Origin: an uncultured Cytophagales bacterium | Lineage (GTDB): Bacteria > Bacteroidota > Bacteroidia > Cytophagales > UBA9547 | Assembly (NCBI GenBank): GCA_945957555.1 | Contig: CAMFLX010000032.1 | Span: 1-37,179 of the forward strand | Direction of reading: 5' to 3' | Length of the DNA: 37,179 nt | Shown here: positions 4,339 to 32,812 of the stretch, in pieces | How positions within the stretch are numbered: position 1 is the stretch's first letter | Layout: each line of letters starts with the position of its first letter | Position numbers and translations under genes: made by a program | Notes under the pieces: generated by a model | What the model saw: only the letters and a program-made list of their open reading frames with translations | Databases searched by the model: none | What the model was told of the DNA's origin: nothing

Positions 4339-4403
4339 GTGATTTTTCTTAATATATAGAAATGAGGATCTTTTAGATAGAAATGCCAAATATGATCACT
4401 TAC

Positions 4404-4700
4404 ATACATAGCACAGGCAAATGTCTTAATATAGAACTTAGTCGCCTACTTTGCCATGTAAAATATCATAATGCAGAACTCAATTGCATACATAGCAATG
4501 TCAAATGCCTTGATGTGGAACTCAATCGCATACATAGTAACGTCAAATACCTTAATATACAACTCAATCGTATACTTTGTCATGTAAAATACCCTAATGC
4601 AGAACTCAGTGGCATACTTTGCAATGTTAAATGCCCAAGTTTGTCACTAACCTGCCTACATCGTAATGACAAATGCCTAGTTGTGTCTCGAATAAGATAC
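4404..4700. repeat. Intergenic tandem repeat, about seven units of 42 nt
   Basis: The motif TACATAGCAATG (or TACTTTGCCATG) followed by a CAAATGCC-like stretch and an AACTCAATCGC-like stretch recurs with anchor T at 4405, 4447, 4489, 4531, 4573, 4615 and 4657, an exact 42-nt period, with a decayed eighth copy near 4699. Each unit splits weakly into two 21-nt halves. Because 42 is divisible by three, a 109-codon frame (4383-4712) stays open and reads as a 14-residue repeat, but it has no signal peptide, recognisable domain or convincing start. I treat it as repeat DNA between two cargo genes. Confidence 0.85.
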
Positions 4701-26866: not shown

Positions 26867-27655
26867 ATGGTCATTACCTTGTTAGGCGTGCATCTCAACA
26901 TTACCACGATACACAAGGGTGTATTTGACATTACCGTACCCAAAACCTTTAAGATTGCTCTTTTCGAAACCCAATACCTTTACTTACTTATCCATTCAAT
27001 CACCTTAATCCCTGTATTTTTATTGTCTTTCGACAAAAAAGTACATTTCTATAAAAAATGGAAATATATGTGGCAAGGAGGCCTGATCGTAGGTATATTC
27101 TTTATTATTTGGGATATGGGCAAAACCCATTTGGACGTATGGACCTTCAATCAAAAATATATCATTGGATATTATGTGTTCAATTTGCCCATAGAAGAAA
27201 TCTTATTTTTCATCACAATTCCCTATGCCTGTATGTTTATTTATGAGTGCCTGAATCACTACTTCCCATTCAAAGTCAGCGTATTTACGGAACAAATGAT
27301 CTCATGGATCCTGTTCATCCTATTACTTACTTTAGTTGTTTATTCCTTTGAGCAAACTTATACTTTTGTGACTGCCGTTATTGCTACTGCCTATCTCATC
27401 TACCATTTAGCGTTTGAATCTGGCAGAATACGGATGCGATTCTATTTCGCCTTTTTGGTGACTTTTATACCTTTTGTCCTAATAGATGGTATTCTTACAG
27501 GTGCCTTTGAAGCAGAACCAATTATTATCTATAATCCTGAAGAGTTTATGGGCTATCGTATTATCAGTCTACCTGTAGAAGACGCCATCTATCTGATCCC
27601 TTTGATGCTTGCCAACATCACTTTCTTTGAAAAGACAAGGAAAGGCATTTCTTGA
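26867..27655 (+). CDS. Fused CrtYc/CrtYd-type lycopene cyclase
   Basis: 262 residues, seven or eight membrane helices. The two halves each keep the carboxylate motif of the heterodimeric cyclase family: NLPIEEILFF (first) and SLPVEDAIYLI (second). The start of the usual homology is near TQYLYLLIHSITLIPVFLLSFDKKVHFYKKWK, so the first 33 residues are an extra hydrophobic extension. The frame is the same as that of the kinase and is open from the kinase stop, with no better start codon. The enzyme makes beta- or gamma-type ionone rings on lycopene; other carotenoid genes are not in the window. It lies 66 nt after the kinase gene, probably in one transcript. Confidence 0.88.
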   Translation: MVITLLGVHLNITTIHKGVFDITVPKTFKIALFETQYLYLLIHSITLIPVFLLSFDKKVHFYKKWKYMWQGGLIVGIFFIIWDMGKTHLDVWTFNQKYIIGYYVFNLPIEEILFFITIPYACMFIYECLNHYFPFKVSVFTEQMISWILFILLLTLVVYSFEQTYTFVTAVIATAYLIYHLAFESGRIRMRFYFAFLVTFIPFVLIDGILTGAFEAEPIIIYNPEEFMGYRIISLPVEDAIYLIPLMLANITFFEKTRKGIS

Positions 27656-27675: not shown

Positions 27676-27938
27676 ACGATTTCAGGCGTCATTTTGTCCT
27701 TTTAATTCTCTTTTTAACGCCTGCAGGCGTCATCTTCACGCCTGCAGGCGTCAAACATACGCCAACAGGCGTCAATTTGTCATTTCAATTCTCTTTTTGA
27801 CGCCTACAGGCGTCAATCGCAGGCCTCGAGGCGTCATTTCAACGCCCAAAGGCATCACTTACACGCCTGCAGGCGTCAATTTGTCATTTTAAGCATCAAT
27901 CATACGTCTGTAGACATCACTTGCACGCCCACAAGTTT
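27676..27938. repeat. Array of ten 14-nt palindromes (ACGCCTGCAGGCGT) at 21- or 41-nt spacing
   Basis: Copies begin at 27676, 27717, 27738, 27759, 27800, 27821, 27842, 27863, 27904 and 27925. The perfect palindrome ACGCCTGCAGGCGT occurs at 27717, 27738 and 27863; others have 1-6 changes, several of them matched on both arms (ACGTCTGTAGACAT). Short spacers are 7 nt and begin CA; the three long spacers (27 nt) resemble each other (TTTGTC then a TTTTAATTCTC-like run). Steps are 41,21,21,41,21,21,21,41,21. No long protein frame fits. Confidence 0.9.
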
Positions 27939-28159
27939 GTCTAAGGTATTTAATTTCGTCATTTTGCTACCAAATGCTACTAGTACTGTGTCTCTGGAGC
28001 TACAGTTTGTTCCAAAAGGCAACAGCAGCAATTCAATACCAAAGCCAATTATGTTTATAAATACGACCTTTAAAGTATATAAACTTAAAAAGCATTGCAT
28101 GTTCTTCTGCAATGGTCAAATCGTTTCTTATTAACACATTCTATACATGATAATACCAT
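27939..28159. other. Remainder of the intergenic region after the palindrome array
   Basis: Overlapping short frames on both strands (27937-28134 plus, 27900-28112 minus) lack recognisable domains or start signals. I see nothing else here. Confidence 0.4.
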
Positions 28160-28191
28160 AAAAAAAGGGCCACCCAAATGGGCGACCCTTT
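28160..28191 (-). terminator. Rho-independent terminator of the FG-GAP cargo gene
   Basis: AAAGGG/CCCTTT with an inner CCC/GGG stem around AAAT (28164-28191) lies 25 nt past the stop at 28216. On the minus strand a run of seven T follows. Confidence 0.85.
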
Positions 28192-28215: not shown

Positions 28216-31200
28216 TTAGTTTTTTACAAAAATCTGTGTAGCTATGCTCCCACCTTTTTTCATAATTTTCACAAGATAGATACCTGCACTAAAATCTTTC
28301 CCTAATGTTAAAACACTTTGAGTATTGTGGTTTTCTAAATTATAAACTACCGAACCTTGTTGGTTATAAACTACTACCTCCACAGTCTCTTCATGTACAG
28401 AACCACTGAATTCTAGTACCGTTTCTCCAGCAGAGGGATTAGGATACAAACTAAAATAAGTATCCAATGAAGTCAAATTAGCTGGTGTCATAACATCAGA
28501 CTTACGTACGAGTTGTTGATAGCCAGAACAAGATGTGAGCGAAACAATATATACAGCGCCGGCATCATAACCATCAGCTGCTTGCACTGGCACTGATGAA
28601 TTCCAGCCATCATCGTCTCTTGGCGCACTTACAGCCAGCTCTAGGTTCCCATCATTATTCAAGTCGCCCAAGGCTCCCATTGATTGTGCGAAGAAATCAT
28701 ATTCTATATTGATTTCTCCGTTAAATGGTGCATCTGTACTCTTAATGAGCTTGCTACATTTTACTGTTCCATCGCTTTTGAGATAAACAATCCAAAATCC
28801 ACCCATTGCCAAACTACCTGTTTTTATATAGGGGCTTCCTACTGCTATATCATTTACACCATCACAATCCAAATCCCCTAATTTTTCCAACGAACGGCCG
28901 AATCCTGTATCTGATGGCCCCACAAAACCACCTATACCGTTAGCAAAACGCTGATAATTTCTCACAGTACCGTTACTATTCATAAACAAAATGTATACTG
29001 CACCATCAGTAGCGTCTGCACTATAAATATCACCAACAGCAATCTCTCCATTACCATCCCCGTCCAAATCACCAATACCTTCAGAGAATGCCCCCCAAAT
29101 ATTCGAATAATTAGGCAACAAGCCTTGCATACCACCGCTTCTATCAGACACCTCTTGTACCTGCTTTATGGTGCCATCGGTATTCAAAAATATTACATAG
29201 AACCTTGGCGGAGTATTGCCGCTTGGCACTGCCAAACTCGCAACCATATCCGTAACGCCGTCATGATCCAAATCGCCAATATTGGTCATGGATATTCCAA
29301 ACTGCTCGTTACTAGCAGCAGGCAGAGTAGATGTAAGACCTGGGTGAGTAGTCCTGTTATGTTTCTTGTAGGTTTTAACGGTACCATCAGAGTTCAAGAA
29401 TAAAATCCAAAAAGCCCCGTTAAACAAGCCCGCATCACTATCCAAAGGTGCCCCAACAGCGATATCTGTATTGCCATCACCATCAAGATCACCCAACGAT
29501 GCCACCGATTGACCAAACATAGAACCATACTGTGCACTCAGACCTGTGTATGGAAGACCTCCAAAACCAGGACGAATAATGGTTCTGGATTTAACCGTAC
29601 CATTAGCATTCATGAAAATCACAAATAATTCTTCAGAATAACTTGCAGCTGTAGACATATTAAAAGGTGTGGTGCTCACCATATCTTCCACTCCATCCCT
29701 ATCTAAGTCTCCAATGCCAGTGAGCCCGGTACCAAAGTTCCCATAACCGGTAATTGGGCCTGCAAACCCACCCTGAGTGGCTGAGATCTTAGTAGTTGAT
29801 AGTAGATTACCAGATGTTACACTGCAGCATACTTGTGCGGGTGCCATATTAACAGTAGCAGTTACAGGCATACTTGTACAGGCCCCAAGTAGTGAGCTAC
29901 CTTTAACAGTGTAAGTTATTGCAGCAGTCGGGGAAGCGATCACGGCAGCGCCAGTGGTTGTATTTAAACCTGTGGCTGGTGACCATGTAAAATTAGGCGC
30001 CCCTGTTGCCGTTAGCGTCACTGATGACCCAGGACAAATTGTTGATGTTGACGGAGTCACCGTGATCACTGGTATGGTTTCAACTGTTACTGTAACATTT
30101 GCAGTTCTGGAACAAGTGCCTACTTTATTGGTCACTGTATAGGTAGTAGTCACACTTGGGTTAGCTACTACAGTAGCACCTGTTGTAGTATTTAAACCCG
30201 AAGCCGGTGACCAAGTATATGAAGCGCCTCCTGATGCTGTTAAAACAATCGAATTACCCTTACAAATCACAGGATTCGCAGGACTTATTGATATTGCTGG
30301 GTTCGGTTTCACATTAACAGTGACTGTTTTACTAGCAGAACATCCTGTTGCGAAACTTCCCTTAACCGAATAAGTTGTAGTTACCGAAGGACTAGCTACC
30401 ACAGTAGCACCTGTAGTGGTATTAAGTCCAGTGGCTGGTGACCATAAATAGCTTGTGGCTCCAGATGCTGTGAGGCTCACAGAACTTCCATTACAAATGG
30501 TGGCATTGGGCGGTGTCACATTAACTGCAGGATTGGGATTTACAGTAATTGGCACCAAAACAACTCTTGAACAAGTACCAACCTTATTAGTAACAGTATA
30601 TGTAGTGCTTACTGCAGGTTTTGCGGTAACTACAGCTCCTGTGGTAGTATTGAGACCTGTAGCAGGAGACCATGTGTAACTAGACCCTCCTGCAGCGGTA
30701 AGGACCACTGAAGAACCTACACAAATACTAGCCGATGGTGGAGTAACAGAAATCACTGGATTAGGCAAAACAGTGACGGTTACGGTTTTTGTCGCTGTAC
30801 AAGCACCAATTGCTCCTGTAACCGTATATGTGGTATTCACCGAAGGCTTTGCAATCACTGATGCACCAGTGGTTGTATTTAAACCAGTAGCAGGGGACCA
30901 AGTATAGGTAGTAGCCCCGTAGGCCGTGAGAGTCGTGGAGTTCCCATTACATATCGTTGCCACACTAGGATTCACAGTCACTGTTGGTTTTACATTGTCT
31001 ACCTTTACAGTAACAGTAGTATTATTTACACAGCCAGCAATACTAGTTCCTGTAACCGTATAAGTAGTAGTTACGACTGGGCTAGCTATAACATTTGCAC
31101 CAGTGGCAGTATTGAGGCCTGTGGCAGGAGACCAAACATAAGTATTGGCTCCTGAAGCAGTAAGTGCCACGGATGAACCTTGACAAATTACTGGTGTCAG

Positions 31201-32688
31201 GGGATTGACTGAGATAACAGGTCTAGGGTTTACCGTAACAGTTACGTTTTTAATTCCAACACAAGTAGTTGCAGAAGATATCCCAGTGATAGTATATACT
31301 GTGGTTACACTTGGACTTGCCATAACCGATGCACCAGTAGTTGTATTGAGCCCAGCTGCAGGTGACCATGTATAAGTACTGGCACCTGAAGCAACAAGCG
31401 CTACAGATGAACCTTGACAAATTATCGGCGCCACAGGATTCACATCTATAACAGGGTCTGGATTGACATTAACGGTTACATTTGCCCTACTTATACATCC
31501 ATTTGCGTCAGGAAGGCTTGATACAGTATAAACTGTAGTGGCCGCAGGACTAGCGGTAACCACGGGGCCGTTTGTCGTATTAAGACCTGTTGCAGGTGAC
31601 CATGTATATCCTGTAGTGGCTCCAGAAGCAGTGAGTACTGTACTTGAACCAGGACAAATACTTGCACTAGTTGGTGTAATCTGTATAGGCACTCCACCAA
31701 ACAAGCCTTGGGTAGAAGCAGCAAGATTCAAACTAAAACCTTGACCCGCACCCTGAGCTGCCGTAAGCGCCACACCTCCATTATAATAACTTACTAATAT
31801 CTTATAGGTACGGCCAGCAATTACATTTAAAGGTGTCCCGTATTGGGCACCTACCTGCCCATTAGGGCCTGTGGTACCTCGTACACCCGAATAATTACAA
31901 GAAACTTGAAGTGCTGGATTTGTAGCAATCGCCCCACAGTTGGTATTGGTCACATCGTATACTGCCCAATCATAATCACTGTTGAGTATCACAGGTGTAA
32001 TGGTAAAATTAAGAACGCCATTTACAGCTGCTGTAAACTCATACCAAACACTATTGATCTCGCCAGTACCAAGGCAGCTGATACCTGTATTAATTTCATT
32101 CCCTTGCAATGAATATGCATCAGGCTCATTAAATACCAGATTTGCACCACATATCAAATTGGCATTAGCACAATTTTGAGCGGCACCAACCCTTGCCCCT
32201 TTTGTATCGCTATGTACTGGAAACAATCTAGGATAAGGCGCAACTAATTGCTCTTTGGCGATTTCAAGATTTTCCAAAACCACACTCACCAGACTCATTC
32301 CAAGCACAGGATCTGCTTCCTCAACATGGAGCGAGAGATAATCAGTTGTTACTACCTCACCTGCAAGCAATCCTAAACTTGAGTTTGCAAATTGATACCC
32401 AAGAATTGAAGGACTTGCCACATAAGTACATGAAACTAAACCTTGATCGCGATAGCGAAATTTCAAGACTACATTACCAATGGGACTCCCCTTGACAGAG
32501 TTAACCACACTAGGAATAGCGAAATTTAATATTTGGTCCAAAGTATCTACAGCGTCATGACTGACGCCCGACGATTTATCAGCATCAAGCTGAACCGTGG
32601 CTATTGGACTCTTTGCCATTAAAGGAAATACTCCCATGACTAGGATAATAGCCATGAATAACAATGAAGGTAAACGGATTTTTTGCAT
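28216..32688 (-). CDS. Giant secreted T9SS cargo with eight Ig-like and six FG-GAP repeats
   Basis: 1490 residues from ATG 32688 (MQKIRLPSLLFMAIILVMGVF, a good signal peptide); the ATG at 32733 adds 15 residues that spoil it. Residues 25-330 are a unique region with paired cysteines. Residues about 333-946 hold eight tandem Ig-like units of 75-80 residues, each with a CxGSSVxLTASG opening and TWSPATGLNTTTGA core. Residues about 966-1373 hold six FG-GAP units with calcium-binding loops such as GDLDRDGVED and GDLDGDGNTD, as in integrin alpha-type propellers. The last 77 residues are a T9SS type A domain (LYPNPSAGE to IFVKN). It is probably a cell-surface adhesin or polysaccharide-binding protein; no catalytic domain is seen. 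Confidence 0.9.
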   Translation of the reverse strand: MQKIRLPSLLFMAIILVMGVFPLMAKSPIATVQLDADKSSGVSHDAVDTLDQILNFAIPSVVNSVKGSPIGNVVLKFRYRDQGLVSCTYVASPSILGYQFANSSLGLLAGEVVTTDYLSLHVEEADPVLGMSLVSVVLENLEIAKEQLVAPYPRLFPVHSDTKGARVGAAQNCANANLICGANLVFNEPDAYSLQGNEINTGISCLGTGEINSVWYEFTAAVNGVLNFTITPVILNSDYDWAVYDVTNTNCGAIATNPALQVSCNYSGVRGTTGPNGQVGAQYGTPLNVIAGRTYKILVSYYNGGVALTAAQGAGQGFSLNLAASTQGLFGGVPIQITPTSASICPGSSTVLTASGATTGYTWSPATGLNTTNGPVVTASPAATTVYTVSSLPDANGCISRANVTVNVNPDPVIDVNPVAPIICQGSSVALVASGASTYTWSPAAGLNTTTGASVMASPSVTTVYTITGISSATTCVGIKNVTVTVNPRPVISVNPLTPVICQGSSVALTASGANTYVWSPATGLNTATGANVIASPVVTTTYTVTGTSIAGCVNNTTVTVKVDNVKPTVTVNPSVATICNGNSTTLTAYGATTYTWSPATGLNTTTGASVIAKPSVNTTYTVTGAIGACTATKTVTVTVLPNPVISVTPPSASICVGSSVVLTAAGGSSYTWSPATGLNTTTGAVVTAKPAVSTTYTVTNKVGTCSRVVLVPITVNPNPAVNVTPPNATICNGSSVSLTASGATSYLWSPATGLNTTTGATVVASPSVTTTYSVKGSFATGCSASKTVTVNVKPNPAISISPANPVICKGNSIVLTASGGASYTWSPASGLNTTTGATVVANPSVTTTYTVTNKVGTCSRTANVTVTVETIPVITVTPSTSTICPGSSVTLTATGAPNFTWSPATGLNTTTGAAVIASPTAAITYTVKGSSLLGACTSMPVTATVNMAPAQVCCSVTSGNLLSTTKISATQGGFAGPITGYGNFGTGLTGIGDLDRDGVEDMVSTTPFNMSTAASYSEELFVIFMNANGTVKSRTIIRPGFGGLPYTGLSAQYGSMFGQSVASLGDLDGDGNTDIAVGAPLDSDAGLFNGAFWILFLNSDGTVKTYKKHNRTTHPGLTSTLPAASNEQFGISMTNIGDLDHDGVTDMVASLAVPSGNTPPRFYVIFLNTDGTIKQVQEVSDRSGGMQGLLPNYSNIWGAFSEGIGDLDGDGNGEIAVGDIYSADATDGAVYILFMNSNGTVRNYQRFANGIGGFVGPSDTGFGRSLEKLGDLDCDGVNDIAVGSPYIKTGSLAMGGFWIVYLKSDGTVKCSKLIKSTDAPFNGEINIEYDFFAQSMGALGDLNNDGNLELAVSAPRDDDGWNSSVPVQAADGYDAGAVYIVSLTSCSGYQQLVRKSDVMTPANLTSLDTYFSLYPNPSAGETVLEFSGSVHEETVEVVVYNQQGSVVYNLENHNTQSVLTLGKDFSAGIYLVKIMKKGGSIATQIFVKN
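29850..31700 (-). repeat. Eight coding repeats of about 230 nt in the FG-GAP cargo gene
   Basis: The core that encodes WSPATGLNTTTG recurs near 29970, 30199, 30430, 30656, 30884, 31112, 31351 and 31586, at steps of about 226-239 nt. Third codon positions differ between copies, so they are not recent exact duplications. Confidence 0.85.
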
Positions 32689-32812
32689 GATTTTAAATTG
32701 TTTTAGTTTTAAATAAAAATTGAATAAACACATAAAAAAATTTTGATTTTAGAAATAGAGTCCGCCAAATGATGTATAGTGTTTAGAGTTTTTTAACCTA
32801 ATATTAACTGTA

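Follow-up and report, generated by a model that had tools for sequence, protein, structure and literature searches.

Tandem protein sites about two helix turns apart are familiar from plasmid iterons and partition-site repeats, and eukaryotic satellites keep a constant monomer length while their sequence turns over by locus. BIMEs and REPs, in the parts of the source drawn on here, are made up of palindromic units in intergenic DNA, separated by spacers both short and long, are arranged in mosaic blocks and are bound by host proteins, and the REP copy number is usually above 100 per genome (PMC2817692). BrickBuilt of Porphyromonas gingivalis, as far as the portion of its description drawn on here goes, is an intergenic minisatellite-MITE of 23-nt tandem units present at several loci, and it forms a single sequence family that has inverted repeats as leader and tail (PMC4596501). 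No title describing a 21-nt grid of the kind reported below was found among those listed in literature searches.

Layout of the array and its sister loci

The array studied here lies in a window of 37,179 nt (the whole stretch of DNA that was analysed, contig C32 of an uncultured Cytophagales bacterium), between convergent genes. The features of the window are as follows.

4403..4654, second array, 42/126-nt period, sequence unrelated to the first, between two minus-strand genes (codon-phase p = 0.91)
26867..27655, plus strand, lycopene cyclase domain gene (PF18916, E 1.4e-31), stop 20 nt before the array
27676..27938, plus strand, whole array, ten palindrome-like 14-nt sites on a 21/41-nt grid
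27676..27758, plus strand, 83-nt block 1: site, 41-nt step, site, 21-nt step, site
27690..27716, plus strand, long slot 1, a non-palindromic on-grid element, with TTTGTCATTATTATCGTCA as its conserved form in the sister arrays
27717..27730, perfect 14-bp palindrome ACGCCTGCAGGCGT (7/7 pairs)
27738..27751, perfect 14-bp palindrome (7/7 pairs)
27759..27841, plus strand, 83-nt block 2, 75% identity to block 1
27773..27799, plus strand, long slot 2 (block alignment, slot identities)
27863..27876, perfect 14-bp palindrome (7/7 pairs)
27863..27945, plus strand, 83-nt block 3, diverged (block alignment)
27877..27903, plus strand, long slot 3 (block alignment, slot identities)
27904..27917, diverged site ACGTCTGTAGACAT (5/7 pairs), the sole clear compensated pair of this array
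28164..28191, minus strand, terminator-like hairpin of the ordinary kind that belongs to the minus-strand gene, apart from the array
28216..32733, minus strand, convergent secreted FG-GAP/Ig_7 gene with a T9SS sorting domain (PF18962, PF01839, PF19081)

The ten sites start at positions 27676, 27717, 27738, 27759, 27800, 27821, 27842, 27863, 27904 and 27925, so that the successive steps are 41, 21, 21, 41, 21, 21, 21, 41 and 21 nt. The consensus 14-mer ACGCCTGCAGGCGT, with up to three mismatches allowed, has seven occurrences in the window where 0.52 would be expected; seven were reached in 0 of 100 shuffles. The initial annotation had read the 21/41-nt spacing as a two-turn grid, and the step list agrees with this, the unit spacing being a multiple of ~10.5 bp. 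Its description of ten palindromes on a 21-nt grid stands as to the ten sites and their 21- and 41-nt steps, but the palindromes are perfect in three of the ten and near perfect in four (5-6 pairs), and the other three have four pairs or fewer (complementary pairs, out of a maximum of 7 and in order: 4, 7, 7, 5, 6, 6, 4, 7, 5 and 2). The units are found in one orientation only, with CA on the right flank in most.

The end of the array is 278 nt from the stop of the convergent FG-GAP/T9SS gene, and no GC-rich hairpin followed by a T run, as in an intrinsic terminator, was found inside 27676-27938. The T9SS sorting domain of this neighbour points to the Bacteroidota. No replication or partition gene is among the five window ORFs tested (lycopene cyclase, histidine kinase, T9SS protein, ABC ATPase and M16 peptidase), and Rfam families gave 0 matches in the window and in loci L015, L016 and L017.

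A scan of the genome for the array family, which the initial annotation had proposed, gave two sister arrays, at C57:16790-17038 and C105:9329-9556, and weak matches at C333, where units like GATGTCTGCAGGC have a 21-nt period. An 83-nt block of one 41-nt and two 21-nt steps is common to the three arrays, and the non-palindromic stretch of the long slot is best preserved in C57 and C105. The suggested growth by block duplication is borne out by the repetition of this block in the window array, to which TRF assigns a period of 83. Similarity between the sister loci ends inside the array, with no shared ends found in a coarse comparison. The nine blocks of the three loci fit into 83 alignment columns without a gap, while 153 of 747 letters differ from the column majority. 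Indels usually occur at 5-10% of the rate of substitutions, by which 8 to 15 would be expected across nine 83-nt blocks; the spacing noted in the initial annotation is in this form kept in the sister arrays. At L193:16612-16869 (contig C2), three 83-nt units at 94% match have the block length of the window array and an unrelated sequence.

A 21-nt grid across the genome

The grid goes beyond the window array and recurs genome-wide with other sequences. In a sample of 1,234,606 bases including the window, of which 226,195 lie outside long open frames, autocorrelation placed the best lag of 24 intergenic arrays at 21k in 15 and at 21k-1 in 4, that is 19/24 on the grid with the two window arrays, which were known beforehand, and 17/22 without them. 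The remaining five had best lags of 22, 22, 23, 123 and 124, and the sequences of the on-grid arrays were mostly unrelated to each other. Among controls from other bacteria (120 loci, 861,416 bases), the same analysis gave 48 arrays with scattered lags, five of them at 21k or 21k-1. The control loci had been retrieved by a pattern of 21-nt spacing, a bias in favour of 21, and a few Desulfobacterales assemblies supplied most of them. With TRF, restricted to intergenic arrays that span 84 nt or more and match at 65-97%, 19 of 26 arrays of this genome were on the grid versus 6 of 37 in the control loci (Fisher p = 7e-6). By extrapolation, the 6.25-Mb genome may hold ~100 arrays. Eight repeat arrays within its long reading frames had best periods of 78, 126, 126, 66, 126, 14, 14 and 99. 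By gene context, 8 of 27 array rows were convergent, 12 co-directional, 3 divergent and 4 unclassed. For the centred, A/T-periodicity, codon-phase and folding tests described below, array boundaries and periods were chosen by the analyst, and the arrays omitted include L168, L179 and the second part of both L196 and L260.

The spacing changes less than the letters do. The ratio of indels to mismatches was 0.10 in on-grid arrays, and control arrays had 0.41 (permutation p = 2e-4), a difference to which the choice of arrays by period itself contributes to some degree. Four paralogous arrays that belong to another family (C8, C75, C121 and C176), aligned pairwise within boundaries set by the analyst, had net length differences that were all multiples of 21 in five of the six alignments, the gaps being 21, 21 and 21; 21 and 63 (48+15); 21; 21; none; and +9/-1, with 65, 68, 18, 29, 10 and 24 substitutions in the same pair order. 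An IS200 gene and the C8 array (L172) are 1.5 kb apart, with an ORF in between.

Where steps deviate from the grid, they tend to be one base short: lags of 41, 62, 83, 104 and 125 occur in seven arrays, and lags of 21k+1 are confined to two arrays with 22-nt units. Since 83 bp over eight turns corresponds to 10.4 bp per turn, such steps bring the mean across long distances to ~10.4 bp per turn, in line with a helical phase that is kept. Phase is broken in the two unit-22 arrays (L176 and L251) and in one unit-23 array (L186). Modulation of A/T steps at 10.5 bp is weak and inconsistent in pure 21-nt units. Intrinsic curvature through such a periodicity was considered and dropped, as the apparently strong pooled p value came from a null that did not treat 42- and 83-nt units fairly, and the pure 21-nt units gave mixed results.

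A search with the array DNA found it in 1 of 59 genomes, its own. A covariance model (R1) gave matches in 2 of 10 genomes of the family, the second being G003 with a row of terminator-like hairpins, and when 194 genomes from the order were searched with it, the genome of origin was the only match at E <= 1e-4. Viral contigs gave 0 matches. Samples of relatives contained 11 (G003), 2 (G004), 0 (G006), 0 (G013) and 1 (G011) arrays, and most of the periods in G003 were multiples of either 7 or 8 nt. The hairpins of G003, which belongs to another genus of the same family, are five tandem terminator-like AACACGCC-AAAA-GGCGTGTT units (L043:1430-1600, contig C37) and share the ACGCC/GGCGT core. A pattern scan of genome contigs for two palindromes 21 nt apart returned at least 120 stretches, and the 11 loci read among the matches listed had no relation to the array: they held REP-like hairpins of Desulfobacterales, coding repeats and one Prevotellaceae array. 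The Prevotellaceae array (RUG14088, L108:4450-4620) has several 21-nt tandem copies of GGCCTTCAGGCGCTTTTGCTT, and the Desulfobacterales genomes (L090, L045, L069, L056 and L123) carry many REP-like hairpins of the form AGTTCCGCCTTCAGGCGGT...CCGCCTGAAGGCGGAACT.

Palindromes and folding

Symmetric changes in diverged copies had initially been taken to suggest selection on the palindrome, and this part of the proposal is not supported by the alignments. In the nine-block alignment, both sides had changed in 1 of 135 cells, the same as after shuffling (mean 1.0). Among 27 units, 144 of 189 cells pair versus 138.7 after shuffling (p = 0.06), with 7 both-changed cells versus 4.8 (p = 0.16), and the paired-cell test on five further unit sets gave p values from 0.06 to 0.83. 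As there is no excess of compensatory change, an outcome that the initial annotation had itself listed as refuting, the palindromes have been copied and are drifting, and selection on the palindrome itself is not demonstrated.

The window array folds far below dinucleotide shuffles on both strands (z -11.9 and -10.1, 0 of 200 shuffles each) and also below column-permuted arrays (z -5.7 and -7.6). On the plus strand, and with the columns of all units permuted alike, 9 of 21 arrays of this genome folded far beyond the null (z between -3.8 and -7.0, p = 0.016); the other 12 did not. Palindromy as a general rule of the arrays was rejected in the centred test on 23 arrays (Fisher p = 0.17); it marks a subclass, 9 of 21. 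The arrays with 22- and 23-nt units all belong to this folding class. Those at L176:12614-12701 and L251:13436-13545 are off-grid 22-nt arrays of terminator-like AAAAGCT..AGCTTTT hairpins, and L186:4126-4240 is a 23-nt array of TGCTATTATAATAGCA palindromes. On contig C55, L179:17052-17483 has overlapping palindromes in a very AT-rich spacer with an 84-nt period.

Alternative explanations and known systems

Our preferred reading, held tentatively and at somewhat less than even confidence, is that these arrays are non-coding satellites that keep a two-turn spacing while their sequence drifts, and that they would provide helically phased DNA for a putative dimeric or architectural protein. The window array would then be a palindromic member of genome-wide intergenic arrays built on a 21-bp module of two B-DNA turns. 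Selection at the DNA level would act on the spacing, so that every unit presents the same helix face, and the palindromic subclass would be recognised by a dimeric protein, each palindrome of the window array being a candidate site aligned with the others along one face. Arrays of this kind might serve as local platforms, for docking or architecture, at gene ends and in other spacers.

The main rival holds that the arrays are functionless minisatellites: a species-specific process of slippage or unequal exchange would favour 21-nt units, arrays would persist in long spacers by chance, and palindromes that arose once in a founder unit would have been copied ever since. We regard this as possible, if doubtful. 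It fits the differences in sequence between loci, the nearly fresh state of some arrays (L182 at 93% and L193 at 94% match), the copying of units in blocks, the lack of compensatory maintenance of palindromy and the absence of the array family from the relatives searched, and a mutational bias with rare indels could yield a grid too. Less easily accommodated are the old, diverged arrays that are still in register, with fewer indels than the control arrays, and the paralogue pairs, most of which differ by whole-unit gaps only. It also counts against a functionless origin that, to our knowledge, no duplication process is known that gives 21 nt. That the array works as RNA, with read-through from the lycopene cyclase gene or the opposite neighbour producing a string of small hairpins by which transcription would be ended or 3' ends made more stable, seems improbable. 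The position between convergent genes, shared in kind by the 8 convergent rows, and the strong folding on both strands, which persists against column-permuted arrays, would suit such a role, but folding beyond the null is absent in 12 of the 21 arrays, the array at hand has no terminator-like T tract, the minus-strand gene has a terminator-like hairpin of its own at 28164-28191, and an RNA role needs no strict 21-nt grid.

The genome has 10 Y1_Tnp matches, the two tested of which are REP-associated tyrosine transposases (RAYTs; NCBIfam NF047646); these genes, L196:1014-1571 (C2) and L287:242-835 (C121), are flanked by REP-like hairpins and lie ~0.3-0.6 kb from 21-nt-grid arrays. It is nonetheless very improbable that the window array is a REP/BIME-like element moved by a RAYT. 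None of the 10 matches is on contigs C32, C57 or C105, and REP/BIME-RAYT systems are marked by a RAYT gene beside the repeats, by high copy number and by palindromes at regular spacing whose orientation alternates, in place of which we find a 14-bp palindrome unit of constant orientation at three loci, plus the weak C333 matches, and no dispersed alternating family; the low copy number by itself already weakens the RAYT reading. RNA hairpins and REP/RAYT elements both explain less than the DNA-level reading. To coding repeats of seven residues we give next to no credence: 21 nt are seven codons and an open frame is kept in several arrays, but the frame is broken by steps of 41, 62, 83 and 125 nt, and a codon-phase signal was absent in 15 of 15 arrays of this genome (p 0.15 to 0.99). 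For the window array, a coding heptad repeat was ruled out by the frame-breaking 41- and 83-nt steps. In the 21-nt array L215:1434-1801 of the relative G004 (C1), variation falls at a single codon position (p = 0.002), which makes a coding heptad repeat probable, and the array was for this reason set aside as a relative's example of a non-coding grid. Because this is the only clear 21-nt array among the sampled family relatives, the 21-nt rule is so far supported for the genome of origin only.

The preferred reading of phased DNA has a stronger form, which we consider unlikely: that the arrays, ~100 by extrapolation, are sequence-free, length-constrained satellites in which selection would keep the spacing and not the letters, aligning one architectural protein or protein family on one helix face. 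If true, this would be a bacterial counterpart to length-constrained satellite DNA, and the genome would be a natural case in which to test whether chromosome or transcript ends can be organised by helical phase alone. Where selection keeps spacing and not sequence, ordinary similarity searches would miss the whole class, and period statistics would be a means of finding such arrays.

Compared with the described systems, the window array resembles the BIMEs and REPs of enterobacteria and pseudomonads in its intergenic palindromic units, its short and long spacers and its mosaic blocks. It differs from them in that its family is confined to three loci and the weak C333 relative, with 14-bp units of constant orientation, and in the strict 21-nt grid that is common to arrays of other sequence. 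BrickBuilt, to judge from the portion of its description drawn on here, is like these arrays in belonging to the Bacteroidota, in being intergenic and in having tandem units of similar length at several loci, and unlike them in its 23-nt units, where we find 21-nt units and 83-nt blocks, and many unrelated sequences on one grid. Many unrelated sequences sharing one grid would, as far as these two sources extend, set the present arrays apart from BIMEs/REPs and BrickBuilt alike. Unlike iterons and partition sites, they are found on several chromosomal-type contigs, with no replication or partition gene among the five neighbours tested, and unlike eukaryotic satellites, they are bacterial, are built on 21 bp and extend over tens to hundreds of bp each.
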